Positions 38,785 through 59,817 of a stretch of DNA of 64,000 bases are shown here, in pieces. A program made the position numbers and the translations under genes. The stretch is from the NCBI GenBank assembly GCA_945860165.1, contig CAMAPL010000007.1:46307-110306 (forward strand), written 5' to 3'. Below the pieces are notes generated by a model. That model was given only the letters and a program-made list of their open reading frames with translations, was not told where the DNA came from and ran no database searches. The DNA is from Rhizobium sp. Q54. Its GTDB lineage: Bacteria > Pseudomonadota > Alphaproteobacteria > Micropepsales > Micropepsaceae. Position 1 is the stretch's first letter. Each line of letters begins with the position of its first letter.

Positions 38785-39495
38785 ATGGTCAATATTGCCC
38801 TTGTTGATGATGACAAAAATATTCTGGCGTCCGTCAGCATGCTGCTGGAGCAGGAAGGCTATCAAGTCCGCACATTTTCGGACGGCGCCGCCGCTCTCAC
38901 CGCCCTGACCACCACCCCGCCCGACCTTGCCATCCTGGACATCAAGATGCCCCGCATGGACGGCCTGGAATTGCTGCGCCGCCTGCGCCAGACTCAGGAT
39001 CTGCCGGTGATCTTCCTCACCAGCAAGGATGAAGAGGTCGACGAGCTGATGGGCCTGAATGCGGGCGCCGACGATTACATCCGCAAGCCTTTCTCCCAGC
39101 GCCTGTTGCTGGAACGGGTGCGCGCCGTCCTGCGCCGCGCCGAAGGCAAGTCGGGGCCGGTACCCGCAGGCGCCGTCGGCGACGCGGCCGAGAAGGAAGC
39201 GCTGGTACGCGGCCATCTGGCGCTCGACCCGCAGCGCCATGAATGCACCTGGGACGGCAAGCCCGTGCGGCTGACAGTCACAGAATTTTTGATCCTGCAG
39301 GCGCTGGCGCAACGTCCCGGCTTTGTCAAAAGCCGCGACAGCCTGATGGACGCGGCCTATGACGATCAGGTCTATGTCGATGACCGCACAATCGACAGCC
39401 ACATCAAGCGCCTGCGCAAGAAATTCAAGGCCGTGGCGGACGACTTCGACGCAATCGAGACGCTGTACGGCGTCGGCTATCGTTACAGAGAATAG
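38785..39495 (+). CDS. chvI: OmpR-family response regulator, ChvI type
   Basis: [34 protein letters not shown]; winged-helix C-terminus; adjacent to chvG-like kinase and PTS genes. Confidence 0.9.
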
Positions 39496-41048
39496 TGCCG
39501 CACTTTTCCGCCCTCACCTGGCGCATTCTTGCCTTCAATGCGCTGGCGCTGATCGTGCTGACTAGCGGCGTCATCCTGGTGCAGGCCACGGGGCGCGGCA
39601 TGGTCGAGGAACGCCTCAATTCCATTCAGGAACAAGCCAATATCGTGGCGGGCACCATCGCCCAATATGCCACCGATCCCGACACCCATACGCTGCGGGT
39701 CGATGAGGCCGAGCCGCTGCTGCGGCAGCTGATCGCGCCGACGCGGCTGCGCGGCCGGCTGTATCTGCCCACCGGTCGGCTGGCGATCGACACCCGAAAT
39801 CTCCTAGCACGCAATGTGGTGCAGACGCAGGAGCTTCCCGCCCTGGATTCCACCACCCAGATCAAAGAATGGCTCAAGCGGCTCTATGACGGCGTGATGG
39901 GCGTGCGCCCGTTCGTGCGGTTAGAGCCCTATTACGAAGCCGGCGATGATGGCCGCGTCTATCAGGAAGTGGGCTCCGCCCTGAAGGGTGCCGCCGACAG
40001 CGCCGAACGGGTGGACGACCGCAACCGGCTAGTTCTGTCAGTGGCGGTGCCGATCCAGCGCTTCACCGCCATCTATGGCGTGCTGTTCCTGTCCACCGAG
40101 GGCGGCGACATCGACGACATCCTGCGGGCCGAACGCGACACGCTAATTCAGGTTTTCGCCGTCGCTTTCCTTGTCATGCTGTTTTCGTCTCTCTATCTGG
40201 CAGGCACTATCGCCGAGCCAGTCAAGCGGCTGGCGGCGGCGGCCGACCGGGTGCGCTCCGGCATTGGCGGGCGCGGTGAGATTCCCAACTTCCCCGAACG
40301 CGACGATGAGATCGGAGATCTGGCCGACAGCCTGAAATCCATGACGGCGGGGCTTTATGACCGCATCGACGCTATCGAAAGATTCGCCGCCGATGTAGCG
40401 CATGAACTGAAGAACCCCCTCACCTCGCTGGCCAGCGCGGTGGAAATGTTCGGCCGCGCCAAGGACGATGAAATCCGGGCCCAGATGCTGGGCATCATCC
40501 GCGGCGACGTCAAGCGCATCGACCGGCTGATCACCGACATTTCCGATGCCTCGCGGCTGGATGCCGAACTGTCGCGCGAAGCCCCAGAACCGGTGGCGCT
40601 GTCGCGGCTGCTGTCCACCATCATTGAGATCTATCGCATGACCGACACCGACCATGTGGTGGAGTTCGCGCTGCGCGACGAACTGCCGGCCAGCGGCATC
40701 GTGCGCGGCCGCGACGAACGGCTGGGCCAAGTGTTCCGCAACCTGATCGACAATGCGGTATCCTTCAGCCCGGCGGGCGGGACGGTGACCGTCAGCGCCG
40801 CCCGTCATGATATCGTGGCCCGGGTAACGGTGGAGGATGAAGGCCCCGGCATTCCGCCCGATAATCTGGAATCCATCTTCGAGCGTTTCTACACCGAGCG
40901 GCCCAGCGACACGTTCGGCCGCAATTCCGGTTTGGGACTTTCCATCGCCCGGCAGATCATCGAAGGCGCCGGCGGGCGCATCTATGCCGAGAACACGGAC
41001 GCGGGCGGCGCGCGGATAATTGTCGAACTGCCCCTCGCCCATGGCTGA
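39495..41048 (+). CDS. chvG: Sensor histidine kinase, ChvG/ExoS type
   Basis: FAADVAHELKNPLTSLASAVEMFG H-box, HAMP, HATPase_c; GTG start overlapping the chvI stop. Confidence 0.9.
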   Translation: MPHFSALTWRILAFNALALIVLTSGVILVQATGRGMVEERLNSIQEQANIVAGTIAQYATDPDTHTLRVDEAEPLLRQLIAPTRLRGRLYLPTGRLAIDTRNLLARNVVQTQELPALDSTTQIKEWLKRLYDGVMGVRPFVRLEPYYEAGDDGRVYQEVGSALKGAADSAERVDDRNRLVLSVAVPIQRFTAIYGVLFLSTEGGDIDDILRAERDTLIQVFAVAFLVMLFSSLYLAGTIAEPVKRLAAAADRVRSGIGGRGEIPNFPERDDEIGDLADSLKSMTAGLYDRIDAIERFAADVAHELKNPLTSLASAVEMFGRAKDDEIRAQMLGIIRGDVKRIDRLITDISDASRLDAELSREAPEPVALSRLLSTIIEIYRMTDTDHVVEFALRDELPASGIVRGRDERLGQVFRNLIDNAVSFSPAGGTVTVSAARHDIVARVTVEDEGPGIPPDNLESIFERFYTERPSDTFGRNSGLGLSIARQIIEGAGGRIYAENTDAGGARIIVELPLAHG

Positions 41049-41517
41049 TCCCATTTCTGGCGAAACCAACATCCATGCTTCCTGCGTCGCGATAGACGGC
41101 AAGGGCGTGTTGTTACTGGGCGTCAGCGGAGCGGGCAAGTCCGACCTTGCACTGCGCCTGATCGATAGCGGCGCCCGGCTGGTGGCGGATGACCGAACCA
41201 TCCTGTTCGTGAAAAACGGTGCCTTGCATGCCAAGGCGCCGCCCAGCATCAAGGGCCTGCTGGAAATCCGCGGCGTCGGAATCGTCAAGCTGCCGGTGCG
41301 CGCCTCCGTCAAGCTGGCGCTGGCGGTAACCTTGGGACGCGAGGGCGCACGGCTGCCAACCCTGCACTTCTATCGTCCGCCTTCGGTGCTGAAGACGACC
41401 ACAAAGCTGCCGCAAATCATATTGGACGCCCGTTTCGCGTCAACGCCCGCAAAAATTCGCGCGGCTTTGGCGGCTTTCTCGCGCGCGTTGTTTCGCGACA
41501 GCTTCACCTTGAGATAG
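41041..41517 (+). CDS. hprK: HPr kinase/phosphorylase (short alphaproteobacterial form)
   Basis: GVSGAGKSDLALRLIDSGARLVADDRT; LLEIRGVGIV. Confidence 0.9.
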   Translation: MADPISGETNIHASCVAIDGKGVLLLGVSGAGKSDLALRLIDSGARLVADDRTILFVKNGALHAKAPPSIKGLLEIRGVGIVKLPVRASVKLALAVTLGREGARLPTLHFYRPPSVLKTTTKLPQIILDARFASTPAKIRAALAAFSRALFRDSFTLR

Positions 41518-41627
41518 GCAGGGGCAACCCCAAATAGCCTCAAGTAGCAAGGCGATAGGCTATAAAAAAGGACCTTTCCTCGGCAATGGCTTTTGGTACT
41601 GTCCGCGCCGCGAACGGAAAAGCTTTC

Positions 41628-42020
41628 ATGATCGGCATCGTCCTCGTCACCCATGGCCGCCTGGCCCAGGAATTCATCTCGGCCATGGAGCATATGGTCG
41701 GCCCGCAGTCTCACCTGCGCGCAGTATGCATCGGGCCGGAAGATGATATCGAACGCCGCCAGCGCGAGATCGCGGCCGCCGCCAAATCGGTGGATGTAGG
41801 CCGCGGCGTGATCATCGCCACCGACATGTTCGGCGGCACGCCCTGCAACCTGGCCCTCACTCTGCTGGAAAAAGGCAAAATCGAAGTTTTGGCGGGCGCC
41901 AATCTGCCCAGCCTGATCAAGCTGATCGATATTCGTACCAAGGTGCCGCTGGAACAGGCGGTGAAGGAATCCATCGAGGCCGGACGCAAATATATGCGCG
42001 CCGGAAGCGCCGACCTCTGA
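41628..42020 (+). CDS. PTS sugar transporter subunit IIA (mannose family)
   Basis: MIGIVLVTHGRLAQEFISAMEHMVG; TDMFGGTPCNLALTLLE. Confidence 0.92.
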   Translation: MIGIVLVTHGRLAQEFISAMEHMVGPQSHLRAVCIGPEDDIERRQREIAAAAKSVDVGRGVIIATDMFGGTPCNLALTLLEKGKIEVLAGANLPSLIKLIDIRTKVPLEQAVKESIEAGRKYMRAGSADL

Positions 42021-43240: not shown

Positions 43241-43360
43241 GTGATTACTGGCGCTGTATTTTTTGCATATCCATATAAGGATATGCAGTTTTCTTTATAT
43301 CCTCCTTGCCCCGTTTCCGGCCCGCTGCTATAGCCGCCTCGCAATTTGAGGAATCGCGCC

Positions 43361-44767
43361 ATGGCCGCCTTTAACGACTACATCGTCAAGGACATCTCTC
43401 TCGCCGAATGGGGCCGCAAGGAGCTCAACATCGCCGAGATCGAGATGCCGGGCCTGATGGCCACCCGCGCCGAGTATGGCAACGCGCAACCGCTCAAGGG
43501 CGCGCGCATCGCCGGCTCGCTGCACATGACCGTCCAGACCGCCGTGCTGATCGAGACCCTGCAGGCGCTGGGCGCCGACATCCGCTGGGTGTCGTGCAAC
43601 ATCTATTCGACCCAGGATCACGCCGCCGCCGCCATCGCCGCCGCCGGCATCCCCGTTTTCGCGATCAAGGGCGAGAGCCTGAAGGACTATTGGGACTACA
43701 CCGCCAAGCTGTTCGAATGGCACGGCGGCGGCTATCCCAACATGATCCTAGACGATGGCGGCGACGCCACCATGCTGGTGCATCACGGCCTGCGCGCCGA
43801 GAAGGGCGACGTCGCCTTCCTGGAAAAGCCTGAAAATGAAGAAGAAGAAGTCTTCTACGCGCTGATCAAGCGCCTGCTGAAGGAAAAGCCCAAGGGCTGG
43901 TTCGCCGAAGTCGCCGGCAACATCAAGGGCGTTTCGGAAGAAACCACTACCGGCGTGCATCGCCTCTACCTGATGGAAAAGGACGGCAAGCTGCTGTTCC
44001 CAGCCATCAATGTCAATGACAGCGTCACCAAGTCGAAGTTCGACAACCTGTATGGCTGCAAGGAATCGCTGGTGGACGGCATTCGCCGCGGCACCGATGT
44101 GATGATGGCCGGAAAGGTCGCCATGGTCGCCGGCTTTGGCGATGTCGGCAAAGGCTCGGCTGCGTCGCTGCGCAATGCCGGCTGCCGCGTCATGGTGTCG
44201 GAAATCGACCCGATCTGCGCCCTGCAGGCCGCCATGGAAGGCTATGAGGTCGTGACCATGGAGACAGCGGCGCCCAAGGCCGACATCTTCGTCACCGCCA
44301 CCGGCAATGTCGACGTGATCACCGTCGATCACATGCGGGCCATGAAGGACCGCGCCATCGTCTGCAACATCGGTCACTTCGACAGCGAGATCCAGATCGC
44401 TGCCACCAAAAACTTCAAGTGGCACAACATCAAGCCGCAGGTGGACGAGATCGAATTCCCCGACGGCAAGCGCATCATCATGCTGTCGGAAGGCCGCCTG
44501 GTGAATCTGGGCAACGCGATGGGCCACCCGTCCTTCGTGATGTCGGCCAGCTTCACCAACCAGACGCTGGCGCAGATCGAGCTGTGGCAGAACACGGGCA
44601 AGTACGAGAAGAAGGTCTATGTCCTTCCCAAGGTACTGGACGAGAAGGTCGCCCGCCTGCACCTGGCCAAGGTCGGCGCCGATCTGACCGAACTCAGCAC
44701 CAAGCAGTCCGACTACATCACCATCCCGAAGGCGGGCCCGTATAAGCCGGACACCTATCGCTACTAA
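43361..44767 (+). CDS. ahcY: Adenosylhomocysteinase
   Basis: [50 protein letters not shown]-terminal KPDTYRY. Confidence 0.98.
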
Positions 44768-45150: not shown

Positions 45151-47580
45151 ATGCGTCCCAGAATGGGACAGAGCAGACGGCCGGGGGCACGGCGATGGCG
45201 GGGTTTCCTGCTGGCCGCTTTCCCCTGCGCCCTTATGCCTGGCCCGGCCTTGGCGGCCGTGCCCGACCTCCTCACCTTCCAGAACGGCAACATAATCGTC
45301 CTGTCAGCCCTGGCCTGTGGCGGCGTGGCGCTGGCCATCGCCGCAGGCCTCTGGGCATTGGCGGAACAGAGCACTACGCGCCGCCTACGCCGCTCGCTCC
45401 GGATGGTCGGCGCCAAGACCAAGGCAGCCGTCGGCGAACGCGACGCCCTGCTGGGCGCGGGCCGCGAGGGGCTGGTGGTCTGGGGCCGCGACGGTGCCGG
45501 GCCTTTCTCCTATGGCGGCGGCGAGGAAACATTGCAGTCCTGCCTGAAGGGGCCCAATGCCCTGGCCCTCTCTACCGCCCTGGACGGATTGTCGGACGGC
45601 GGCGCGGCGTTCCAGCTGGCGGTGCAGGACAGTCATGGCCGCAAGCTGACGGCGCGCGGCCGTGCCGTGGGCGGCATGGCCGCGGTGTGGCTGGAAGAAT
45701 CTGCGGTGGCGCAGGAGAGCGGCGAATACAAAGCCATTCTGGATGCTCTGCCGATTCCGGTCTGGCTGCGCGACAAGGGACTGGCGCTCACCTGGGGCAA
45801 TCATGCCTTCCTGAAAGGCGCCGGTGCCAAGGATATCGAGACCGCGCGCCGCGAGCAAGTCTCGCTGGACAAGAGCGAGCGCGATCTGGCCGCCACCGCG
45901 CGTTCGGAAAACGCCCAGCAGGAAGCCAAGCGCTTCTCGGTGGTGAACGGCCAGCGCCGCGCCCTAGCCTTTACCGAAATCCCGCTGGGCGATGCCGGCA
46001 TTATCGGTGCGGCGGTGGATGTCACCGATGTGGTGGCCGCCGAAGCCAAGCTGCAGCAGCATGTCGATGCCCATGCCGCCACGCTGGATACGCTGCAGAC
46101 CGCGGTGGCGATCTTCGGCCCGGACCAGAAGCTGCGTTTCTACAACAAGGCGTTTGTGCGGCTGTGGGGCCTGCCGGAAGGCTGGCTGGACAAACATCCC
46201 GGCGAAGGCGAAATCCTCGACCGGCTGCGCGACGGCCGCAAGCTGCCCGAACAGCGCGACTACCAGGCCTGGAAACGCGGACGCCTGGCGCTGTACCAGG
46301 ACGGCGCGCGCGAAAATGCCAGCGAAGAGGCCTGGCATATGCCCGGCGGCCAGACCATCCGCGTCGTCACCCAGCCGCACCCCTTCGGCGGCCTGACCTT
46401 CCTGTATGAAGACGTCACCGCGCGCCTGACCCTGGAAAGCGACTACAACACGTTGATGAAAGTGCAGTCGGCGACGCTCGACACGCTGAACGAAGGAGTG
46501 GCGGTGTTCGGTCCCGACGGCAAGCTCAAGCTGCACAACGCCGCTTTCTCCCGCATCTGGGAATTCGAAAAGGGCGAACTGGCCGGTGAGCCGCATGTGC
46601 GCACCATCGCGGCCCTGTCCAAGGACAAGTTCGGCGATACCGGCCTGTGGGAACAGCTGATCCATGCCATTGTCGCAGGCGTTGCGGCCCGCGACCTAGG
46701 CGAAATCGAGCGTTCCGACCGGTCCACCCTGTCGCTGTCCACCTCGCCGCTGCCCGATGGCGCCACTTTGGTGACCTTCAACGATGTCACCGACCGTTTC
46801 CGCATCGAGACGGCGCTGCGCGACCGCAACGAAGGACTGGAAGCCGCCGATCGGCTCAAGTCCGACTTCATCAAGCATGTCAGCTACGAATTGCGCACGC
46901 CGTTGAACACCATTCTGGGCTTCTCCGAGCATCTGGCCAGCGGCGTACCCGGCGCGCTGAACGAGCAGCAGGGCGAATATATCCAGGCCATTGTGGCGGG
47001 CGGCAACACCCTCAAGAGTCTTATCAACGACATTCTCGACCTGGCACTGGTGGAAACCGGCGCCTTGCGGCTGGAGCTGGAACGCATTGACCTGCACGAC
47101 ATCATCACAGAAGTGGCGACCCATGCGCGCGAATGGGCCAACAAGGTCGACCTCACCCTGCACGTCGATGTCGCGCCTAATGCAGGCAAGTTCCTGGCGG
47201 ACGGACGGCGGCTGCGCCAGATCATGTTCAACCTGCTTTCCAACGCCTTCAAATTCACCACGCGCGGCGGCGAGATCGTGCTGTCGGCGAAAATCGTGGG
47301 CGAGGATGTGCAGATTTCCGTGGCCGATAACGGCCCCGGCATCTCGCCCGAGGTGAAGGCCAATGTCTTTGAGCGTTTTTCGGCAAAAAGCCATTCCGGC
47401 CAGCGCTCCGGCGCAGGGCTGGGCCTGGCGCTGGTCAACCGCTTCCTGGAACTGCATGACGGCTGGGTGGAAATCGAAAGCACCCATGGCACCCTGGTGC
47501 GCTGCCACCTGCCGCGCCGCATCCATGACGACGAGCCTCACCCAGAGGTGAGTGGCGATAGGAAGACGGCGTATCTGTAA
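45151..47580 (+). CDS. divL: DivL-type PAS-containing sensor kinase with Tyr in the H-box
   Basis: Three PAS-like segments; FIKHVSYELRTPLNTILGFSEHL (Tyr replaces the phospho-acceptor His); N/G boxes LRQIMFNLLSNAFKFT and DNGPGISPE...GAGLGLALV; lies upstream of tsaE-amgK-murU-addBA-trxA. Confidence 0.85.
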   Translation: MRPRMGQSRRPGARRWRGFLLAAFPCALMPGPALAAVPDLLTFQNGNIIVLSALACGGVALAIAAGLWALAEQSTTRRLRRSLRMVGAKTKAAVGERDALLGAGREGLVVWGRDGAGPFSYGGGEETLQSCLKGPNALALSTALDGLSDGGAAFQLAVQDSHGRKLTARGRAVGGMAAVWLEESAVAQESGEYKAILDALPIPVWLRDKGLALTWGNHAFLKGAGAKDIETARREQVSLDKSERDLAATARSENAQQEAKRFSVVNGQRRALAFTEIPLGDAGIIGAAVDVTDVVAAEAKLQQHVDAHAATLDTLQTAVAIFGPDQKLRFYNKAFVRLWGLPEGWLDKHPGEGEILDRLRDGRKLPEQRDYQAWKRGRLALYQDGARENASEEAWHMPGGQTIRVVTQPHPFGGLTFLYEDVTARLTLESDYNTLMKVQSATLDTLNEGVAVFGPDGKLKLHNAAFSRIWEFEKGELAGEPHVRTIAALSKDKFGDTGLWEQLIHAIVAGVAARDLGEIERSDRSTLSLSTSPLPDGATLVTFNDVTDRFRIETALRDRNEGLEAADRLKSDFIKHVSYELRTPLNTILGFSEHLASGVPGALNEQQGEYIQAIVAGGNTLKSLINDILDLALVETGALRLELERIDLHDIITEVATHAREWANKVDLTLHVDVAPNAGKFLADGRRLRQIMFNLLSNAFKFTTRGGEIVLSAKIVGEDVQISVADNGPGISPEVKANVFERFSAKSHSGQRSGAGLGLALVNRFLELHDGWVEIESTHGTLVRCHLPRRIHDDEPHPEVSGDRKTAYL

Positions 47581-48574: not shown

Positions 48575-49378
48575 TTGGCGCTAGGACAGCATTGGTCCAC
48601 ACAGCGCAAGATGCCGATCACGCCCGACGATGAAGCGGCTTTGACAGCCGACATCATCGAGTTCGCCCGCCAGTATGGCCGCTACGGATACCGCAGGGTT
48701 ACGGCGCTTCTTCGGTCCTCTGGGCGGAGGGTTAACAAGAATCGGGTTGAACGTATCTGGCGTCGTGAGGGGCTTAAAGTTCCAGCAAAACAGCCAAAAC
48801 GTGGTCGTCTATGGCTCAATGACGGGTCGTGCATTCGGCTTCGGCCAGAACGCCCCAACCATGTGTGGTCCTACGACTTTGTCGCCGACCGCACCCACGA
48901 CGCAAAGGTATTCCGGATGCTTTGCATTATCGATGAGTTCACACGCGAAGCGATTGCCATCCGTGTTGCCCGGTCTCTGAAGTCCACCGATGTGATTGAA
49001 GCGCTGTGCGATCTCTTTGTAGAGCGTGGTATCCCGGCTCACATACGATCTGACAACGGTCCAGAGTTTGTTGCCTTAGCTCTGAGGGAGTGGATTGCTG
49101 CTGTGGGCGCCAAGACTGCCTATATCGAACCAGGAAGCCCTTGGGAGAATGGCTACTGCGAAAGCTTCAACGGCAAGCTGCGGGACAAACTGCTCAACGG
49201 CGAGATCTTCTACACTCTCAAGGAGGCCAAGACCGTTATCGAAGCCTGGCTGAGGCACTACAACACCGTCCGCCCGCACTCATCGTTGGGATACCGTCCA
49301 CCGGCACCGCAGACCACAGTCTGGCCGCCAGATCAGCCGGCTAGCAAAGGGATGGTGCAAATGATGCCCTTAAACTAA
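48575..49378 (+). CDS. IS3-family transposase OrfB (DDE integrase core); reading frame extends upstream to about 48497
   Basis: HVWSYDFVADRTHDAKVFRMLCIIDEFTREA, SDNGPEF, SPWENGYCESFNGKLRDKLLN; upstream in-frame SPARRRACVDHIVTELGVPQRRACLALGQH. Confidence 0.95.
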   Translation: MALGQHWSTQRKMPITPDDEAALTADIIEFARQYGRYGYRRVTALLRSSGRRVNKNRVERIWRREGLKVPAKQPKRGRLWLNDGSCIRLRPERPNHVWSYDFVADRTHDAKVFRMLCIIDEFTREAIAIRVARSLKSTDVIEALCDLFVERGIPAHIRSDNGPEFVALALREWIAAVGAKTAYIEPGSPWENGYCESFNGKLRDKLLNGEIFYTLKEAKTVIEAWLRHYNTVRPHSSLGYRPPAPQTTVWPPDQPASKGMVQMMPLN

Positions 49379-49448: not shown

Positions 49449-49781
49449 CTAATGTTGTGACTTGGGCAGGTTGAGAACGATACCGTCCAGCGCTGCGCTC
49501 ATGCGCAACTGGCAGGATAGCCGGCTGGTGGGCCGCACATCGGGCGCAAAATCCAGCATGGTTTCTTCCATCTCGCCTTTGGGCGGCAGTTTTTCCTGCC
49601 ATTCGGGCGCGACATAGACCTGGCAGGTGGCGCAGGCGCAGGCCCCGCCGCAATCGGCATCGATGCCGGGGATCAGGTGCTTGACCGCACCTTCCATCAG
49701 AGACCAGCCTTCAGCGACTTCGACGGTGTGCGCCGTGCCGCCGTCTTCGATATAGGTGACCTTGAATTTCGGCGGCGACAT
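49449..49781 (-). CDS. 2Fe-2S ferredoxin (adrenodoxin/putidaredoxin type)
   Basis: DADCGGACACATCQVYVAPEW and RLSCQL cysteine ligands. Confidence 0.93.
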   Translation of the reverse strand: MSPPKFKVTYIEDGGTAHTVEVAEGWSLMEGAVKHLIPGIDADCGGACACATCQVYVAPEWQEKLPPKGEMEETMLDFAPDVRPTSRLSCQLRMSAALDGIVLNLPKSQH

Positions 49782-50989
49782 CAGCCCATCTGCTTCATCG
49801 GGATGGACATGTCGGCCAGCGTCTCGGGCGCGATTGCCTTGCCTTCCGCGATCATCTTCTTACCGACCAGATATTCGCCGGGCGCATTCACCGCTTCTAC
49901 CGCCGCCACCACACCATCACGCAGATGAAAGACGGCGAATTTTCGGTCCTCGGGACGACCGCGCTGCACCAGCCGGTCGGCGGGACGCGCCAGGCCTGCG
50001 ATCTGCAGCTTGAGGTCATACTGGTCCGACCAGAACCATGGCACCTCACTGTAGGTCTTGGCTTTACCAACCATCGCCAGCGCCGCGTGCTTGGCCTGGT
50101 CGATGGCGTTCTGCACGCATTCCAGGCGGATAGAATGGCCCTCGCGCCCGACATGGCGGGTGCAGTCGCCCGCCGACCATATATGGGGATCGCCGGTGCG
50201 GGCATTCTGGTCCACTACTATGCCGTCTTCGCAACCCAGACCGGCATGGACCGCCAGCTCGTCGCACGGCACCACACCGATGCCGACCAACACGATGTCG
50301 GCTTCATAAGTCTGGCCACCAGCCTTGATACGCTGGACCTTGGCGCCCCCTTCAAAGCCTTCCACGCCGGTGCGCAGCTTCAGCTTCACGCCGGCTTTTT
50401 CATGCTCGGCGGCATAGAAGGCGGAGAGTTGCGGCGACACGGCGCGCGCCATCAACCGGTCCATAGCCTCGAACACCGTCACGTCCAGGCCGCGCTTGGC
50501 GCCCACCGCCGCCACTTCCAGTCCGATATAGCCGCCGCCGACGATGGCGATGCGCTTGCCGCTCTGGAACACGCTTTGCAGCCCGTCCACATCGGCGATG
50601 GTCTTGAGGTAATGGATGCCGGCTAGGTCCGCGCCGGGACAGCGGAGCTTGCGCACGCGCGCGCCCGTGGCCAGCAGCAGCTTGTCATAGGCCAGCAGCC
50701 GCCCATCACTCAGCTCGACGGTGCGGTGGGCGCGATGGATGGCCTTGGCCGAGGTGGAAATAAGCAGTTCGCAGCCGGCTTCTTCGTAAAAGGAGTCCGG
50801 CTTGAGGAACAGGCGCGGCCGCTCGAAGGTGCCCAGCAGATAGGCCTTGGACAAAGGCGGGCGCTGATAGGGCGGATAGGCCTCGTCGCCCACCATGGTG
50901 ATGGCACCCTTGAAGCCTTCGCTGCGCAGGGACTGGACTGCCTGCTGGCCGGCCTGGCCGGCGCCGATAATGACGATGTTTTCGGGCAT
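49781..50989 (-). CDS. FAD-dependent ferredoxin reductase (putidaredoxin reductase-like)
   Basis: NIVIIGAGQAGQQAVQSLR, IAIVGGGYIGLEVAAVG, PHIWSAGDCTRH. Confidence 0.93.
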   Translation of the reverse strand: MPENIVIIGAGQAGQQAVQSLRSEGFKGAITMVGDEAYPPYQRPPLSKAYLLGTFERPRLFLKPDSFYEEAGCELLISTSAKAIHRAHRTVELSDGRLLAYDKLLLATGARVRKLRCPGADLAGIHYLKTIADVDGLQSVFQSGKRIAIVGGGYIGLEVAAVGAKRGLDVTVFEAMDRLMARAVSPQLSAFYAAEHEKAGVKLKLRTGVEGFEGGAKVQRIKAGGQTYEADIVLVGIGVVPCDELAVHAGLGCEDGIVVDQNARTGDPHIWSAGDCTRHVGREGHSIRLECVQNAIDQAKHAALAMVGKAKTYSEVPWFWSDQYDLKLQIAGLARPADRLVQRGRPEDRKFAVFHLRDGVVAAVEAVNAPGEYLVGKKMIAEGKAIAPETLADMSIPMKQMG

Positions 50990-51143
50990 TTCTGACTGAA
51001 TTCCGGTATGCGCGCGCGGGGTTACCATGCCCGCTGATTGCGGGCAATCCGCGTGTTTTTATGGCCTATCGCTTCGCTACATGAGGCCAGTGGATGGTCC
51101 ACAACCAGCCTCTTCCTGCGGCGCAAAGGGCAGGTTAAATACG

Positions 51144-51617
51144 ATGGATATGGCCGAAATATCAGAGACTTTCCGCAGGGCCGTCTCCCTGCCCGACCTC
51201 GACGCCACGGCGCGGCTGGGGGCAGACATTGCCAGTGATTTGCGCAACGGCGATGCCGTGGCGCTGTGGGGCGATCTGGGGGCGGGAAAGACCACCCTGG
51301 CGCGCGCCATCCTGCGCCGGCTGGGGGTCAGCGAAGATGTGCCCAGCCCGACCTTCACCATAGTGCAGGCCTATGACACGCCGGGGCTGGCCGTCAGCCA
51401 TTATGATCTCTATCGCGTGAAACATCCACGCGAGATGCGGGAACTCGGATTCGACGATGCACTGGAGAACGGCGCGGTACTGGTGGAGTGGCCGGAACGC
51501 GCTCCCGAAATTCTGCCGCCTGATTCGTTACATGTACGGCTGCGGATGCAGGACGGGGCGCGCACCGCGCGGCTGACCGGGCCGGCGCGATGGGAAAGCG
51601 TATTGCGTCATGTCTGA
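51144..51617 (+). CDS. tsaE: tRNA t6A biosynthesis ATPase TsaE
   Basis: VALWGDLGAGKTTLARAILRRLG; SPTFTIVQAY; HYDLYRV. Confidence 0.95.
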   Translation: MDMAEISETFRRAVSLPDLDATARLGADIASDLRNGDAVALWGDLGAGKTTLARAILRRLGVSEDVPSPTFTIVQAYDTPGLAVSHYDLYRVKHPREMRELGFDDALENGAVLVEWPERAPEILPPDSLHVRLRMQDGARTARLTGPARWESVLRHV

Positions 51618-52734
51618 TCGCCCATCTTCAAATCGTGAGGCGGCCATGCGCAACTTCCTGGTTGCCGCCGGTTGGGGCGACGCGACCGTGACGCCGCTGC
51701 CGGGCGATGCTTCCACCCGGCGCTATGCCCGGCTGGCGCTGAACGGCCGCAACACCATGCTGATGGACCAGCCACAGGGCGCGGAAACACCCACTGCGCC
51801 GCCCGATGCCAGCGAAGCCGAACGCCAGGCGCTGGGCTACAATGCCGTGGCGCGGTTAGCGGGCGCCGATTGCGCCCGTTTCGCCGCCGTGGCGGATTAC
51901 CTGCGCGGTCATGGCTTGGCCGCGCCGGAAGTCCATGCCGCCGATCATGCCAACGGTTTCGTCATTCTCGAGGATCTGGGTGACGCGCTGTTCGCCGATG
52001 TGCTGGCCGATGGTGGCGACGAACTGGCGCTGTACCAGGCCGCGGTGGGAGTCCTGGCCAAAATTCACGCCCATGATGCCCCCGCCGCGCTGTCTTCCGA
52101 CAAGCCACTGTTCGCCTATGACCAGACGGCGCTGATTGCCGAGACCAGCCTGCTCACCGAATGGTTCCTGCCGCTGGCGCTGGAACGCAGCGCCAGCGAA
52201 ATCGAAACCGACGAACATCGCACATTGTGGAAAGCCGCGCTGTCGCGGATCGAGGGCGGGCGGCGCGTGTTTGTGCATCGCGATTATCACGCCCAGAACC
52301 TGCTGTGGCTGCCGCAGCGCCAGGGCGTGGCCCGCGTCGGGTTGATCGATTTCCAGGACGCGGTGGCGGGCAGCCCTGCCTATGACTTGATCTCGCTTAC
52401 CGAAGATGCGCGCCGCGATGTCAACCCGCAGCTGGCAGAAGCCACCACCGCGCATTACCTCGCTGCGATGCGGGCGCAGGGCACGCCGGTGGACGAAGCC
52501 GCTTTCCGCCACGAGATGGCGGTGATGGCTGCACAGCGCAATGCCAAGATTGTCGGCATCTTCACGCGCCTTTACCAGCGCGACGGCAAGCCGCGTTACC
52601 TCAGCTTCCTGCCACGCGTGTGGAATTATCTTGAACGCGATCTCACGCATCCGGCGCTGGCCGACCTGCGTGGCTGGTATGATCGCGTGATACCCAAAGC
52701 CAAACGGGCCTTGCCCGCGATGGAGACATTATGA
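51610..52734 (+). CDS. amgK: Aminoglycoside phosphotransferase-family kinase, AmgK type
   Basis: VFVHRDYHAQNLLWLPQR...VGLIDFQDAVAGSPAYDLISL; adjacent to a MurU-like nucleotidyltransferase. Confidence 0.85.
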   Translation: MSDRPSSNREAAMRNFLVAAGWGDATVTPLPGDASTRRYARLALNGRNTMLMDQPQGAETPTAPPDASEAERQALGYNAVARLAGADCARFAAVADYLRGHGLAAPEVHAADHANGFVILEDLGDALFADVLADGGDELALYQAAVGVLAKIHAHDAPAALSSDKPLFAYDQTALIAETSLLTEWFLPLALERSASEIETDEHRTLWKAALSRIEGGRRVFVHRDYHAQNLLWLPQRQGVARVGLIDFQDAVAGSPAYDLISLTEDARRDVNPQLAEATTAHYLAAMRAQGTPVDEAAFRHEMAVMAAQRNAKIVGIFTRLYQRDGKPRYLSFLPRVWNYLERDLTHPALADLRGWYDRVIPKAKRALPAMETL

Positions 52735-53453
52735 GCAAGGTCACACGCGCCATGATCATGGGCGCAGGCCTGGGCATCCGCATGCGCCCCCTGACCGACG
52801 ACCGGCCCAAGCCGATGGTGATGGTGGCGGGACGCCCCCTGATCGATCATGCCATCGACAGGCTGATCGCGGCCGGCGTGACGCGGGTGGTGGTCAATGT
52901 CCACTACAAGGCCGAAATGCTGCGCGCCCATCTGGACAAGCGCCGCGATGTCGACATCGTCTATTCCGACGAAACCGAAAGACTGCTGGATACCGGTGGC
53001 GGCGTGGTCAAGGCGATGCCGCATTTCGGCGGCGAGCCTTTCTTCGTCATCAATTCGGACTCCATCTGGGCGGAAGGCGGCATACCGCCCCTACCCGCCA
53101 TGCAGCGGTTGTGGGATGCCAGCCGCATGGACGGACTGTTGCTGCTGGCCGAGATGGAAACCGCGATGGGGTATGACGGCGGCGGCGATTTCGTGCTTGA
53201 AGCGGATGGCAAGGTGGCGCGCGCCAAGGATCGCGGCGAGCAGCCCTATGCCTATCCCGGAGTGCAGATCGTCCATCCCCGCCTGTTCGAGAGCGCGCCG
53301 GACGGCGCCTTTTCCACCAACATCATCTGGGACCGCGCCATCGCTGCCGAGCGGCTGTCGGGCTGCGTGCTGGACGGGGTGTGGATTCATGTCGGCACGC
53401 CGGAGGCGCGCGCCGAGGCGAATGCGTATCTCGCCGCACAGGCCCCTGCTTGA
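52731..53453 (+). CDS. murU: Nucleotidyltransferase family protein, MurU type
   Basis: AMIMGAGLGIRMRPLTDDRPKPMVMVAGRPLIDHAIDRL. Confidence 0.87.
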   Translation: MSKVTRAMIMGAGLGIRMRPLTDDRPKPMVMVAGRPLIDHAIDRLIAAGVTRVVVNVHYKAEMLRAHLDKRRDVDIVYSDETERLLDTGGGVVKAMPHFGGEPFFVINSDSIWAEGGIPPLPAMQRLWDASRMDGLLLLAEMETAMGYDGGGDFVLEADGKVARAKDRGEQPYAYPGVQIVHPRLFESAPDGAFSTNIIWDRAIAAERLSGCVLDGVWIHVGTPEARAEANAYLAAQAPA

Positions 53454-56440
53454 AGGCGCCGGCGGTTTACACCATTGCCGCCAGCGCGCATTTCGCGGAA
53501 AGCCTGGCGCGCGGCTTGTTGCAGCGGACGGGAAACGATCCGCTCGCTTTGTCCTCCGCCACGATCTATCTGCCAACCCGCCGCGCAGCGCGCGGCTTTG
53601 GCGATGCCTTTGCGCGTGTGATGGGCGGCGCAGCCCTACTGCCGCAATTCAAGGCGCTGGGCGACAGCGACGAAGACGATCTGCTGTTTGACGCGCCCTC
53701 CGACGGCCAGGAGCTTGCGCCCTCCATCGCGCCCCTGCGGCGGCAATTGCTGCTGACCGAACTGATCCGGAAATGGGACCGCAAGGGCAGCGACGGCACG
53801 TTATCCTTCGCCCAGGCCGCAACCCTGGCCGACAGCCTGGCCAAGGTGATGGATGAAGTTGAAAATCAGGGCTGCGATCTTGGCAAACTGAAGGATCTGG
53901 CTCCGCCCGAACTGGCCGAACATTGGGAAGGCGTGACCCGCTTTCTCGACGTGTTGCACAAACAGTGGCCCGGTGTGCTGGCGGTGGAGCAAAAGCTCAA
54001 TCCGGCGGCGCGGCGGGCCGCAGCGATCCGGGCGCTGGCCGCCCGTCTTGAGGCCGCGCCGCCGCAAGGACTGATCCTGGCCGCGGGGTCCACCGGCTCG
54101 CTTCCCGCCACCGCAGATTTTTTGGCCGTCATTGCGCAGCTGCCGGGTGGCGCTGTGGTACTGCCCGGCCTTGACCGCGAAATGGACAAACAAAGCTGGA
54201 CCGACCTCGATCCCGGGCATCCGCAATTTGGCCTGCGCCAGTTGCTGAAAACCATGCAGGCGGATCGCCAGGATGTGCAGGACTGGTTCGGCCCGCCCGT
54301 CAATCCAGCCCGCGAATTCCTGCTGCGCGAAACATTACGCCCTGCCCCCACGACAGATGCCTGGCGCGCGCTGGCGCAATCGGGGGAGCGCGAAATCCGC
54401 AAAGGCCTGACCGACATCGCGCTGGTCACCGCCGCCGATCCGGCCCAGGAGGCGCTGGCGATTGCGCTGGCCTTGCGCGAAGCGCTGGAGACGCCCGAGC
54501 GCAGCGCCGCGCTGGTGACGCCGGACCGCAATCTGGCGCGGCGGGTGGCGGCGGAAATGCGCCGCTGGGGGGTCGAGATCGACGATTCCGGCGGACGCCC
54601 GCTGGCCCATACCACAGCCGGCACGTTCCTCTGCCTGCTGGCGGAAGCGGTGGATGCCCGTTTCGCGCCGGTGCTGTTGCTGGCGCTGCTCAAGCATCCT
54701 TTCGCGCGGCGCGGCGAAGACGGCGCGCATTTTCGCGCCCACGCCCGCGAACTCGACCGCTGGTGCCTGCGCGGCCCACGCCCCGATCCCGGTCTGACCG
54801 GCATCACCGCCGCCATCGCAAGATGCGCAAAAGTGCGGCGCTCGCCGCCTGAAGACGCATTGACCGCACTGACGGCGTGGTGGAACGGGATTGCCGCGAT
54901 TCTCGCGCCGCTGGAGGCCCTGTTCGCAGAAAGCGAAGTGCCGCTGGCGGATTTGCTGACCACCCATATCGCCGCCGCCGAAGCATTGGCCTGCGACGAG
55001 CAGAAAAACTGTATCCTGTGGCAAGGCAGCGATGGTGGCACGGCATCCCAACTGGTGGCGGCGTTGATGGCAGCCGCCGAGGATTTGCCGCCGCTGGAGC
55101 CCCGCTCCTGGCCGTCGCTGTTTCGCAATCTCGCCATGAAGACGCCGGTGCGCGCCGCCTATGGCCAGCATCCGCGCCTGGCGATCCTGGGGCCATTGGA
55201 AGCGCGGTTGCAGCGTTTCGACTTGACCATCCTGGGCGGACTGAACGAAGGCATCTGGCCGCAGGCCGCCGGCACCGATCCTTGGTTCTCGCGTCCCATG
55301 CGCGCCAGCCTGGGACTGGAGCAGCCCGAGCGCGGCATCGGCCTGTCGGCGCATGATTTTGCGATGCTGGCGGCCAGCCCTTGCGTGCTGCTGACCCGCG
55401 CCCTGAAGGCGGACGGTACGCCCACCATCGCGTCGCGCTGGTTGCAGCGGCTGGAGCAACTGGTGCTCGGGCTGGACTCGGCGCCGCCGGAGAAGAAAAA
55501 AAAGATCGAGGATATCCTCAGGGGACGTTGCGACTATGCCGGCATCGCCGCACGCATGATGGACGTGACGCGGACCAAGCCCCTTTGCCGCCCGGCGCCA
55601 ACACCGCCCGCCCAGGTGCGGCCGCGCAAATTATCTGTCACCGAAATCGAAACGTGGCTACGTGATCCCTATGCCATCTATGCCCGGCATGTGCTGAAAC
55701 TGCGCCCGCTCGACGCCATCGATGTTCCGATCGGGCCGCGCGAACGCGGCACGGCCTTGCACAAAGCGCTGGAGGATTTCATCTCCCAGCATCCGGGTGG
55801 CTTGCCGGACGATTCGGAAAAGCGCCTGTCGCAGATTGCCGATGATGTTTTTGCGCAAGCCAGCATACCCAAGGCGGCGCTTGCGGTGTGGCGGCCGCGT
55901 TTCCTGGGCGCAGTGCAAGGCTTTCTCAGCGTGGAACGCGAGCGGCGCGAGACCATCGCGCAATCTTTTACCGAGATCACCGGCACGCGAGTTTTCGCTG
56001 TGCCCGGTGGGAATTTCACCCTGATCGGACAGGCCGACCGCATCGACATATTGAAAGACGGCGGCGCCGCGATCCTGGATTATAAAAGCGGTGCCATTCC
56101 CACCCAACCACAGGTGCAGGAATTACTGGCGCCGCAATTGCCGCTGGAAGCGGCAATCCTGGCGGAAGGTGGCTTTCCCGGCATCGGCAAGCGTATCGCC
56201 GAACAGTTGATCTATCTGTCATTGGCCGACAGCAAGAAGGCCGGCAAACCCATGATGGTCAATAACGCCGTCGAACTGGCGCAGCAGGCGGCGGACAAAC
56301 TCAAGCAGCGCATCATCCGGTTCGACGATGAGAAGACACCCTATCTGTCAAGGGTACGCCCACAATTCACCGATAGTGTAGGCTATTACGACCATCTGGC
56401 GCGGGTGCGCGAATGGTCGGCTTCCGGGGAAGACGCCTGA
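53450..56440 (+). CDS. addB: Double-strand break repair protein AddB
   Basis: VYTIAASAHFAESLARGLLQ; LTILGGLNEGIWPQAAGTDPWFSRPMRASLGL; C-terminal PD-(D/E)XK region AILDYKSG; TTG start inferred. Confidence 0.94.
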   Translation: MKAPAVYTIAASAHFAESLARGLLQRTGNDPLALSSATIYLPTRRAARGFGDAFARVMGGAALLPQFKALGDSDEDDLLFDAPSDGQELAPSIAPLRRQLLLTELIRKWDRKGSDGTLSFAQAATLADSLAKVMDEVENQGCDLGKLKDLAPPELAEHWEGVTRFLDVLHKQWPGVLAVEQKLNPAARRAAAIRALAARLEAAPPQGLILAAGSTGSLPATADFLAVIAQLPGGAVVLPGLDREMDKQSWTDLDPGHPQFGLRQLLKTMQADRQDVQDWFGPPVNPAREFLLRETLRPAPTTDAWRALAQSGEREIRKGLTDIALVTAADPAQEALAIALALREALETPERSAALVTPDRNLARRVAAEMRRWGVEIDDSGGRPLAHTTAGTFLCLLAEAVDARFAPVLLLALLKHPFARRGEDGAHFRAHARELDRWCLRGPRPDPGLTGITAAIARCAKVRRSPPEDALTALTAWWNGIAAILAPLEALFAESEVPLADLLTTHIAAAEALACDEQKNCILWQGSDGGTASQLVAALMAAAEDLPPLEPRSWPSLFRNLAMKTPVRAAYGQHPRLAILGPLEARLQRFDLTILGGLNEGIWPQAAGTDPWFSRPMRASLGLEQPERGIGLSAHDFAMLAASPCVLLTRALKADGTPTIASRWLQRLEQLVLGLDSAPPEKKKKIEDILRGRCDYAGIAARMMDVTRTKPLCRPAPTPPAQVRPRKLSVTEIETWLRDPYAIYARHVLKLRPLDAIDVPIGPRERGTALHKALEDFISQHPGGLPDDSEKRLSQIADDVFAQASIPKAALAVWRPRFLGAVQGFLSVERERRETIAQSFTEITGTRVFAVPGGNFTLIGQADRIDILKDGGAAILDYKSGAIPTQPQVQELLAPQLPLEAAILAEGGFPGIGKRIAEQLIYLSLADSKKAGKPMMVNNAVELAQQAADKLKQRIIRFDDEKTPYLSRVRPQFTDSVGYYDHLARVREWSASGEDA

Positions 56441-59400
56441 TGCGCGATTCCTCCGTCATCGCCTCGGACCCGAAAATCTCCGCCTGGGTGGCCGCCAATG
56501 CCGGGTCGGGCAAGACCTACACCCTGGCCAACCGGGTGGCGCGCCTGCTGATGCAGGACGGCACCAAGCCCGAACGCATTCTCTGCCTCACCTTCACCAA
56601 AGCCGCGGCCGCAGAGATGCAGGGACGGCTTTTCAAGCAGCTGGGCACTTGGGCGATGCTGCCGGACGACCAGTTGCGGGCGCAGATCGTGAAGATCGGA
56701 GGCGATGCCCATGGCGATCTGCGCCTGGCGCGCCGCCTGTTTGCAGGCGCGCTCGAAACGCCCGGCGGGCTGAAGGTTCTCACCCTGCATGGCTTCTGCC
56801 AGATCGTGCTGTCGCGCTTTCCCATCGAAGCGGGCATCCCGCCCGCCTTCGATGTGCTGGACGACCAGTCGGCGCGCGAACTGATCGCGGGCGCGCGCCA
56901 GCACATGCTGGAACGCGCCGGAGCCGGCGAGACCGTGCTGGCGGATGCCGTGGCCAGGCTGGTGACCGAAACCAGCGAGGCAAAGCTCACCGGCATCCTT
57001 GATGCCGCGCTAGGCAGCGACCGGCGCAAACTGGACCGGCTGCTTGATGAAGCAGACATTTCTGCGCTGGCGCGAAAACCGTTTGGCCTAGCCGAGAATG
57101 AGACGGCGCAAAGCGTGGCAGAAAAATTCTGTGGCGCGTTAAACGAGGAGATCGCCCAACTAAGTGACGTTGTCGGCTGGCTTGAAAGCGGCACGAAAAC
57201 CGATATTCAAACGGCTCGCGAAATCAAAAACATTTCAGCCAATGGCGGCACACGCGCTCTATCTACATTGCAAGACGTTTTCTTCACTACAAAAGGTGAG
57301 GAACGGCAGCGCCTAGCGACTAAGAAACTTACGGACGCACGCCCAGATTTTTTGAACTATCTAGTCGCGTTGCGAAAACGTTTCTGCGCCGCTGCCGAAC
57401 GCCACCGCACCGCCCGCGCCGCCGAACTGGCCGAGGCCGCCCTGATCCTGATCGACGCGGTGGCCCGTGATTACCGTGCCGCCAAGCGCCTGCGCGGCGT
57501 GCTGGATTATGACGACCTGATCATGAAAACCCGTGACCTGCTGGAAAAGCCCAGCGCTGCCACCTGGGTGCTCTACAAGCTGGACGGTGGCATCGATCAC
57601 CTGCTGATCGACGAGGCCCAGGACACCAGTCCTGAACAATGGGACATCGTCAAAAAGCTGACAGAGGAATTCTTCGCCGGCAGCGGGCGCGAGCGCCGCA
57701 TGCCGCGCACCATCTTCGCGGTCGGTGATGAGAAACAGTCGATCTTCAGTTTCCAGGGCGCGGATCCGGCCCAGTTCGACATCAACCGCCGCTATTTCGA
57801 AGATAAGGTGACGAGCGCGGGATTAACATTGCGCAAAGAACCATTGCTGACGTCGCGCCGTTCGGTGCCCGAAATCCTGACCTTCGTGGATACCGTGTTC
57901 GCCAACGAGCTGGCGCGCACAGGTCTGACCTCCAGCGGCGACGAGATTGTCCACAGAGCCCATCGCAGCACCGACAAGGGCGGCATCGAATTCTGGCCCG
58001 CCCTCAAGCCCGACGAACTGGATGCGGAAGATCCCTGGGCGCCGGTGGATGCGGTCCCGCCGGAAAGCCCCGTTGCGCGCCTGGCTATTCAGATCGCCGA
58101 CAAGATCGCGAACTGGACCCAAAGCGGCTCGTGCCTGCCCGGCCATAAGGAAGCGATCCAGCCGCAGGACATCATGATCCTGCTGCCCCGCCGCGAACCC
58201 TTCGGCAGCGAGGTCATCCGCCAGATGAAGGTGCGCGGCATTCCCGTTGCGGGTGCCGACCGGGTGCGGCTGACCGAACAGATCGCCGCAATGGACCTGA
58301 TCGCACTGGGACGCTTTGTCCTGCAGCGCGAAGACGATCTTAACCTGGCGGCGTTGCTGCGCTCGCCGCTGTGCGGCATCAGTGAAGACGATCTCTACGA
58401 CCTGGCGCATGACCGCAAGGGCGATCTGTGGCAGGCGCTGACGGCGCGGCAATGTGGTGCCGCCTTTGCCTCATCCCATCGCTTCCTGTCGCAGATGCTG
58501 GAACGCGCCGACTATGCGCCGCCGTTCGAGTTTTATTCGCATGCCTTGATTGCCCTTGGCATGCGCGAAAAGCTGCTGGCGCGGCTGGGGACGGAATCCG
58601 CCGACGCCATCGAGGAATTCCTCAGCCTCACCCTGACACACGAGCAAAGCCATTCGCCGTCACTGGAAGGCTTCATCGACTGGGTCGCGCGCGGCGAGAT
58701 CGAGATCAAGCGTGACATGGAGCGTGGCCGCAACCAGGTCCGGGTGATGACGGTGCATGGCGCCAAGGGACTGGAGGCCGACATCGTGATCCTGCCGGAC
58801 ACGACATCGCTGCCCGGCGGGCTGAACCGCAACGAGGGCCTGCTTTATTCCAAGGACGGCCCGCTGTTTCCGCTGCCGGGCCAGGACGCGCCGGAGGCGA
58901 CGCGCGCGGCCAAGGCTGCCGCCGACGAAGAACTCCGGCGCGAACACCGCCGCCTGTTCTATGTCGCGCTGACGCGCGCGCGCGACCGGCTGTGCATCTG
59001 CGGCTTTCAAGGCAAGCGCGAGATCAAGCCAGAGTCCTGGTACGAGATGGCGCGCACCGCGGCCCGGCAACTGGACCTGGAATTGACGCGCGGCGATGAC
59101 GAAGTCCGGATCATCGGTACGGTCGAGGAAGAGAGCGGCACAATCGGTACCGCCGAAGCCAAGCCTCTCCTGCCCGGCTGGATCGTCCGCGCGGCGCCGC
59201 CCGAACCGGTGGTACCCAATCCCATTCGTCCATCGGACCTGCGCGATGGCTCGGCATCCCTATCGCCGCTGGTCACCGCGCGTTTCCTGCGCGGGAATAT
59301 CGTGCATGCGCTGCTGGCGCGCCTGCCCGAAGTCGCACCCGACAAGCGGGCCGGCATTGCGGTGAACTATGCCCGCGCCAACGGCTTGTCCGAGGAACAG

Positions 59401-59817
59401 GCGCAAGCCCTGAGCCACGAGACCCTGGCCGTTCTGGACCATCCCCAGTTTGCCGCCGCTTTCGCGCCCGGCAGCAAAGCGGAAGTCGCCATCCATGCCG
59501 CACGCCCCGATCTGGGCCTGAAAGCCCCAATCGTCGGCCGTCTGGACCGGCTGGCGGTGAGTGACGATCAGGTGCTCATTCTGGACTTCAAAACCAACCG
59601 TCCACCGCCAAAAAGCGAAGACCAGGTTCCGGCCAGCTATCTCGATCAGATGGCGCTGTATCGCGCCGCGGCGGAGCGCGTCTTTCCCGGACGGCGAATC
59701 GTTTGCGGATTGCTGTTCACCGATGGGCCGAGGCTTTTACAGCTTTCCGATGTGGTTCTGGACGCCAGATTGGCCGGTATTTCCGCACGCCTTGACCCGG
59801 AAGGGTCGCGTTCCTAG
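56440..59817 (+). CDS. addA: Double-strand break repair helicase/nuclease AddA
   Basis: AWVAANAGSGKTYTLANRVARLL, ILCLTFTKAAAAEM, LLIDEAQDTSPEQW, VLILDFKTNR. Confidence 0.95.
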   Translation: MRDSSVIASDPKISAWVAANAGSGKTYTLANRVARLLMQDGTKPERILCLTFTKAAAAEMQGRLFKQLGTWAMLPDDQLRAQIVKIGGDAHGDLRLARRLFAGALETPGGLKVLTLHGFCQIVLSRFPIEAGIPPAFDVLDDQSARELIAGARQHMLERAGAGETVLADAVARLVTETSEAKLTGILDAALGSDRRKLDRLLDEADISALARKPFGLAENETAQSVAEKFCGALNEEIAQLSDVVGWLESGTKTDIQTAREIKNISANGGTRALSTLQDVFFTTKGEERQRLATKKLTDARPDFLNYLVALRKRFCAAAERHRTARAAELAEAALILIDAVARDYRAAKRLRGVLDYDDLIMKTRDLLEKPSAATWVLYKLDGGIDHLLIDEAQDTSPEQWDIVKKLTEEFFAGSGRERRMPRTIFAVGDEKQSIFSFQGADPAQFDINRRYFEDKVTSAGLTLRKEPLLTSRRSVPEILTFVDTVFANELARTGLTSSGDEIVHRAHRSTDKGGIEFWPALKPDELDAEDPWAPVDAVPPESPVARLAIQIADKIANWTQSGSCLPGHKEAIQPQDIMILLPRREPFGSEVIRQMKVRGIPVAGADRVRLTEQIAAMDLIALGRFVLQREDDLNLAALLRSPLCGISEDDLYDLAHDRKGDLWQALTARQCGAAFASSHRFLSQMLERADYAPPFEFYSHALIALGMREKLLARLGTESADAIEEFLSLTLTHEQSHSPSLEGFIDWVARGEIEIKRDMERGRNQVRVMTVHGAKGLEADIVILPDTTSLPGGLNRNEGLLYSKDGPLFPLPGQDAPEATRAAKAAADEELRREHRRLFYVALTRARDRLCICGFQGKREIKPESWYEMARTAARQLDLELTRGDDEVRIIGTVEEESGTIGTAEAKPLLPGWIVRAAPPEPVVPNPIRPSDLRDGSASLSPLVTARFLRGNIVHALLARLPEVAPDKRAGIAVNYARANGLSEEQAQALSHETLAVLDHPQFAAAFAPGSKAEVAIHAARPDLGLKAPIVGRLDRLAVSDDQVLILDFKTNRPPPKSEDQVPASYLDQMALYRAAAERVFPGRRIVCGLLFTDGPRLLQLSDVVLDARLAGISARLDPEGSRS

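Follow-up and report, generated by a model that had tools for sequence, protein, structure and literature searches.

Introduction

An early idea about DivL of Caulobacter was that it is a tyrosine autokinase. The wild-type Caulobacter protein has neither kinase nor phosphatase activity, does not autophosphorylate in vitro, and binds an ATP analogue weakly (PMC4211667). It binds DivK~P through its DHp, where R553, T557, Y562, and H579 matter, and T557N weakens this binding (PMC4211667). Tyr550 has been described as conserved, with an Ala in Magnetospirillum as the sole exception (PMC4211667). The Y550F variant retains specific binding of DivK~P. Y550H keeps its affinity for DivK~P but does not regain autonomous kinase activity; phosphate accumulates with DivK~P and ATP, and the variant is viable but defective, with growth and division impaired (PMC4211667). 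In the Rhodobacterales, DivL is short and PAS-only (PMC9430884, PMC2877005), and co-loss of DivK and the kinase part of DivL has already been published (PMC2877005, PMC4211667, PMC9430884).

A divL gene has been found in the window, by which is meant the whole stretch of 64 kb that was analyzed. Its host is an alphaproteobacterium with a small genome, and a metagenome-assembled genome (MAG) labelled Rhizomicrobium (Micropepsales) is among its relatives. The gene itself is an ordinary DivL, one more of a known family; what merits a specialist's attention is the variation that surrounds it. The features of the region are listed in Table 1.

Table 1. Features of the divL region, in positions of the window.
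Feature	Position	Strand	Basis
ahcY (adenosylhomocysteinase), conserved upstream neighbor	43346..44767	+	
divL, pseudo-histidine kinase, 809 aa	45151..47580	+	ORF/translation; PDB 4q20 best by sequence, recovered by fold
Long helix near the N terminus, residues 45-103, putative membrane anchor and linker	45283..45459	+	predicted structure; hydrophobic stretch in translation
PAS-like module A, residues 107-183	45469..45699	+	model's secondary-structure order; unnamed by Pfam
PAS-like module B, residues 190-290	45718..46020	+	model's secondary-structure order; unnamed by Pfam
PAS module C, residues 318-421	46102..46413	+	PAS_8, model
PAS module D, residues 449-545	46495..46785	+	PAS_7/PAS_4, model
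DHp helices, HisKA, residues 547-636	46789..47058	+	Pfam PF00512 57.8 bits, model
H-box FIKHVSYELRTPLNTI, residues 573-588	46867..46914	+	
TAC codon, Tyr579 replacing the phospho-acceptor His (Caulobacter Tyr550)	46885..46887	+	translation; alignment with Caulobacter DivL
Arg582, equivalent to Caulobacter Arg553, required there for DivK~P binding	46894..46896	+	alignment; PMC4211667
CA (HATPase_c) domain, residues 644-788	47080..47514	+	Pfam PF02518 93.2 bits, model
N box NLLSNAFKFT (Asn698)	47230..47259	+	alignment
G1 box DNGPGI (Asp726/Gly728/Gly730)	47326..47343	+	alignment
F box FERF, residues 740-743	47368..47379	+	alignment
G2 box GAGLGLAL, residues 754-761	47410..47433	+	alignment
IS3-type transposase ORF, between divL and fdx	48575-49378		
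Ferredoxin/ferredoxin-reductase pair (fdx-fdr), divergent, between divL and tsaE	49449-51028	-	
tsaE, amgK, murU, conserved downstream neighbors	51027..53453	+	
addB and addA, conserved downstream neighbors	53381..59817	+	

Domain organization and gene neighborhood

The HisKA, HATPase_c, and PAS domains of the window protein are all above the Pfam cut-offs. HisKA spans residues 570-636 and HATPase_c residues 684-790, with PAS_7 (two stretches), PAS_8, and PAS_4 upstream. In the predicted structure, four PAS-like modules follow an N-terminal helix and precede DHp and CA. With a mean pLDDT of 80.7 and a pTM of 0.39, the individual domains of this model can be trusted, but not their placement relative to one another. 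Modules A and B may be PAS domains, judging from the order of their strands and helices alone, and are called PAS-like here. An earlier note on this DNA had counted three PAS-like segments; such segments are present, but the model has four alpha/beta modules. Pfam and the model together match the DivL architecture of N-terminal anchor, multiple PAS, DHp, and CA.

The order ahcY-divL-tsaE-amgK-murU-addB-addA recurs across the class and in the window's genus, among the loci that were read in the class census and the genus relatives. The earlier note placed divL upstream of tsaE-amgK-murU-addBA, and this conserved neighborhood was found. Direct adjacency was not, as the transposase ORF and the fdx-fdr pair intervene. 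The window's genus shares the pair at this position. A near relative (L020) lacks the transposase and has a divL-fdx gap of about 10 bp, and a larger gap of about 9 kb is present at the same position in L019. Upstream of divL, chvG, hprK, and a PTS IIA gene lie at window positions 39495-42020, and the order chvG-hprK-ptsIIA-gumN-ahcY-divL is kept in several relatives. The chvG labels that adjoined divL in the class locus survey were kinase-domain cross-matches and not genes. No CtrA box of the form TTAA-N7-TTAA was found in the whole 64 kb window.

Identity as DivL

The closest solved relative in a sequence search is Caulobacter DivL (PDB 4q20, E 1.5e-46), and Tyr579 aligns exactly with its Tyr550. 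A fold search with the model also recovers 4q20, with a target TM of 0.71-0.76 and 39% identity over the C-terminal part. Over longer spans the scores of generic PAS/LOV kinases are as high or higher, so DivL cannot be singled out by fold alone. In the trees, the window protein was placed with many relatives that carry Tyr. Caulobacter DivL joins L168/L171 (100*) near the base of the DHp-CA tree, and L168/L171 lie in the full-length tree within a starred clade of 37 rows that includes the window protein. The DHp-CA tree is weak taken alone, since three kinases of the window's own genome are placed within it as long branches. An active kinase of the DivJ/PdhS/PnpS type was rejected, as the NCBIfam scores were 133.6 against a cut-off of 1000 bits and 135.7 against 2000 bits.

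The partners of the pathway are encoded in the same genome. CtrA and CpdR both exceed the NCBIfam cut-offs. ChpT is present (201 bits against a cut-off of 240), as is CckA, which is by far the best family for its protein though under the strict NCBIfam cut-off. PleD is encoded as well, and the single-domain regulator adjoining pleD is the DivK candidate; it was named by this adjacency and by 60-97% identity to the single-domain regulator in most of the class, and not by a curated model. The orthology to DivL that the earlier note had claimed is thus supported by the 4q20 and Tyr550 match, the tree placement, the conserved locus, and the partners in the same genome.

The H-box and its close relatives

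Translation places Tyr at residue 579, within FIKHVSYELRTPLNT. The feature of an active histidine kinase, a phosphorylatable His in the H-box, is therefore absent. Glu580 and Thr583 of the H-box are retained, and the N, G1, F, and G2 boxes are complete in the alignment of the DHp-CA part; Asn698 and Asp726/Gly728/Gly730 are present, as expected from the earlier note's description of intact N and G boxes. Relatives from separate assemblies that cover the site and are 53-92% identical have Tyr in 38 cases, Phe in six, and His in none. The Tyr codons of the 38 are TAC in 24 and TAT in 14. With no His in 44 relatives and both Tyr codons in use, a miscalled CAC is excluded. The translation and the relatives thus bear out the claimed replacement of His by a TAC-encoded Tyr579, and the best homologues are not ordinary kinases with His at this site.

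The six Phe relatives read SFLFR(D/N)PL, in which Tyr has been replaced by Phe, Glu by Leu, and Thr by Asp or Asn. Their ATP boxes are intact in all five that were aligned. DivK is present at 91-95% identity in five of the six genomes, and the DivK search found none in the sixth, a MAG. In the neighboring genus g224, Tyr occupies the site in all five sampled proteins. When g224 was used as the outgroup with a mixture model, the Phe rows formed one clade (100/99) that is sister to the window's Tyr clade (100/98). Given this topology and the Tyr in all of g224, Tyr is ancestral here and was inherited by the window protein. The first trees, which lacked close outgroups, showed the Phe group as a basal grade but did not reject Phe monophyly (AU p 0.27 and 0.17). 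A basal Phe grade with the window Tyr as a reversion was ruled out once g224 was added.

Variation of the site across the class

A search of 289 genomes of the class gave matches at E <= 1e-40 in 168 of them. The best matches were aligned on the DHp-CA part together with sampled genus relatives and Caulobacter DivL. Among the resulting 155 rows, the site is Tyr in 123, Phe in 8, His in 6, and another residue in 18. This census of site variation is what goes beyond the published statement on Tyr550. His has divL-locus support in L145, L148, and L151 (G041, G168, and G265), which have the canonical SHELRTPLNTI, complete N, G1, F, and G2 boxes, and DivK. L177 also has a locus-supported His, but its ATP boxes are eroded. 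L116 and L174 have His at the site and lack locus support. Phe is locus-supported in L049, L053, L054, L057, L149, and L187, and Lys and Gln are found in L198 and L201, locus-supported and with eroded boxes.

On a full-length tree with the H-box left out, there are at least 14 changes between Tyr and non-Tyr, with at least four for His and at least four for Phe; these are minima on a quick tree with some long, doubtful rows, and gain and loss cannot be told apart in them. The nesting of the His group of L145, L148, and L151 next to Tyr rows (99*) favors a return from Tyr to His in that lineage. The implication that Tyr is a fixed trait of DivL was too strong, as Tyr has been lost repeatedly within the family. 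A broader reading is that the silenced site keeps evolving, with Tyr as one of its states and not a DivL hallmark. It would have switched to Phe in the window's own genus-level group, where the adjacent catalytic Glu and Thr were lost but the ATP boxes and DivK were retained, and returned to a complete canonical His box at the divL locus in at least one other lineage (L145/L148/L151). This reading is offered tentatively and as rather unlikely. If true, a natural DivL could become a DivK-coupled kinase again.

Relation to DivK

DivK was scored as present at 55% identity, a cut-off set by the analyst. Tyr, Phe, or His occupies the site in 103 of 106 rows with DivK, compared with 16 of 31 rows that have no recognizable DivK. 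Among the class-census rows, 105 of the 106 with DivK retain the equivalent of Arg582, as do 15 of the 31 others. These sequence counts agree with the published co-loss. An independent-pairs test of site state against DivK had five to six usable pairs and was not significant despite the strong raw counts; the association is not independent of phylogeny. There are also counter-examples in the window's family. Genus g228 (L288-L292; G303, G308, G311, G315, and G319) reads SYQLIVPL, with Tyr retained, the H-box Arg changed to Ile, and Thr changed to Val, and DivK is present in four of its five genomes. L279 has Asp at the site and DivK is present.

At the four docking positions known from Caulobacter, Arg582 is identical, and T557, Y562, and H579 correspond to Asn586, Phe591, and Tyr610. 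Asn, Phe, and Tyr are also what most DivL proteins have at these positions in genomes with DivK. T557N weakens binding in Caulobacter and the window protein has Asn586, so docking would have had to re-adjust. Only the Arg is identical, and DivK binding in this organism is a prediction by orthology.

The PAS-only paralogue

A PAS-only DivL paralogue of about 535-610 aa, which stops where DHp would start, accompanies full-length DivL in the window's genus, in about ten genomes (G004, G345, G341, G335, G336, G349, G340, G327, G343, G346, and G325). It is not in the window genome. The loci are L235:2857-4545, L294-L303, and L304, which is probably partial. The eleven sampled PAS-only paralogues form one clade (100/99). 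A Crp/Fnr-type regulator immediately precedes most of them, and a FixJ-type regulator is close by.

Function and alternative explanations

The preferred reading, at a probability of about 0.88, is that the window protein is a DivL orthologue that is catalytically silent, reads DivK~P, and steers CckA. It would be a membrane-tethered PAS protein whose histidine-kinase core now serves as a sensor. By analogy with Caulobacter, Tyr579 could not serve as a phospho-histidine, and there would be no normal autophosphorylation and no dephosphorylation of DivK. The DHp helices would still dock a response regulator and would be bent by DivK~P binding. The bent DHp would act through the PAS modules to shift CckA from kinase to phosphatase, which would lower CtrA~P. 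The Tyr, the intact ATP-binding boxes, the orthology, the locus, and the pathway partners in the genome come from the present analysis; the sensing of DivK~P, the control of CckA, and the missing kinase and phosphatase activity are carried over from work on Caulobacter (PMC4211667, PMC9430884).

The intact ATP-binding boxes, together with Glu580 and Thr583, could also suit a tyrosine autokinase with Tyr579 as the true phospho-acceptor, and PDB 4q20 is itself titled 'tyrosine kinase (DivL)'. Yet in the sister clade, whose ATP boxes are no less intact and which has DivK, the Tyr is replaced by Phe and the Glu and Thr by Leu and Asp/Asn. Moreover, wild-type Caulobacter DivL did not autophosphorylate in vitro (PMC4211667). 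Such an enzyme is thus very improbable. Slightly less so, though still quite improbable, is a DivL paralogue that serves another partner and is distinct from the DivL linked to CckA and DivK. PAS-only paralogues do occur in related genomes and three positions of the DivK interface are changed, but the window genome has a single DivL match, which lies at the ancestral locus, and encodes DivK, CckA, ChpT, and CtrA. In an ordinary PAS histidine kinase, a single transition from CAC to TAC in this strain alone or its assembly would give the Tyr, and the other boxes are canonical. The chance of this is next to negligible: none of the 44 close relatives has His, both Tyr codons occur among them, and g224 has Tyr in five of five. 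A sequencing error or lone substitution is refuted by these relatives. The silent DivL remains the preferred reading.

The Phe clades are a natural counterpart of Y550F, and the His lineages of Y550H, which is harmful in Caulobacter. These natural variants lend themselves to asking what role Tyr has, whether kinase activity can be regained by a DivL, and whether DHp is kept mainly for DivK.

Comparison with known systems

The closest described system is DivL of Caulobacter crescentus (4q20; Childers et al. 2014, PMC4211667), and PAS modules, DHp, and CA are found in both proteins. The Caulobacter H-box SYELRTPL has Tyr, as does that of the window protein. The equivalents of R553, T554, P555, and A601 and the N and G boxes are kept, whereas T557, Y562, and H579 have become Asn, Phe, and Tyr; the aligned C-terminal part is 39% identical. 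The DivJ/PdhS kinases share HisKA and HATPase_c with the window protein (NCBIfam NF050805 and NF041593 match), but they have His where it has Tyr. The short DivL of Rhodobacterales has a homologous PAS part and lacks DHp-CA, whereas the window protein retains DHp-CA and its genome retains DivK. A similar ahcY-divL locus is present in L236 and L237, from two genomes of the census whose DivL is PAS-only. In Rhodobacterales the short DivL replaces the long one, whereas in the window's genus the PAS-only form is an extra copy.
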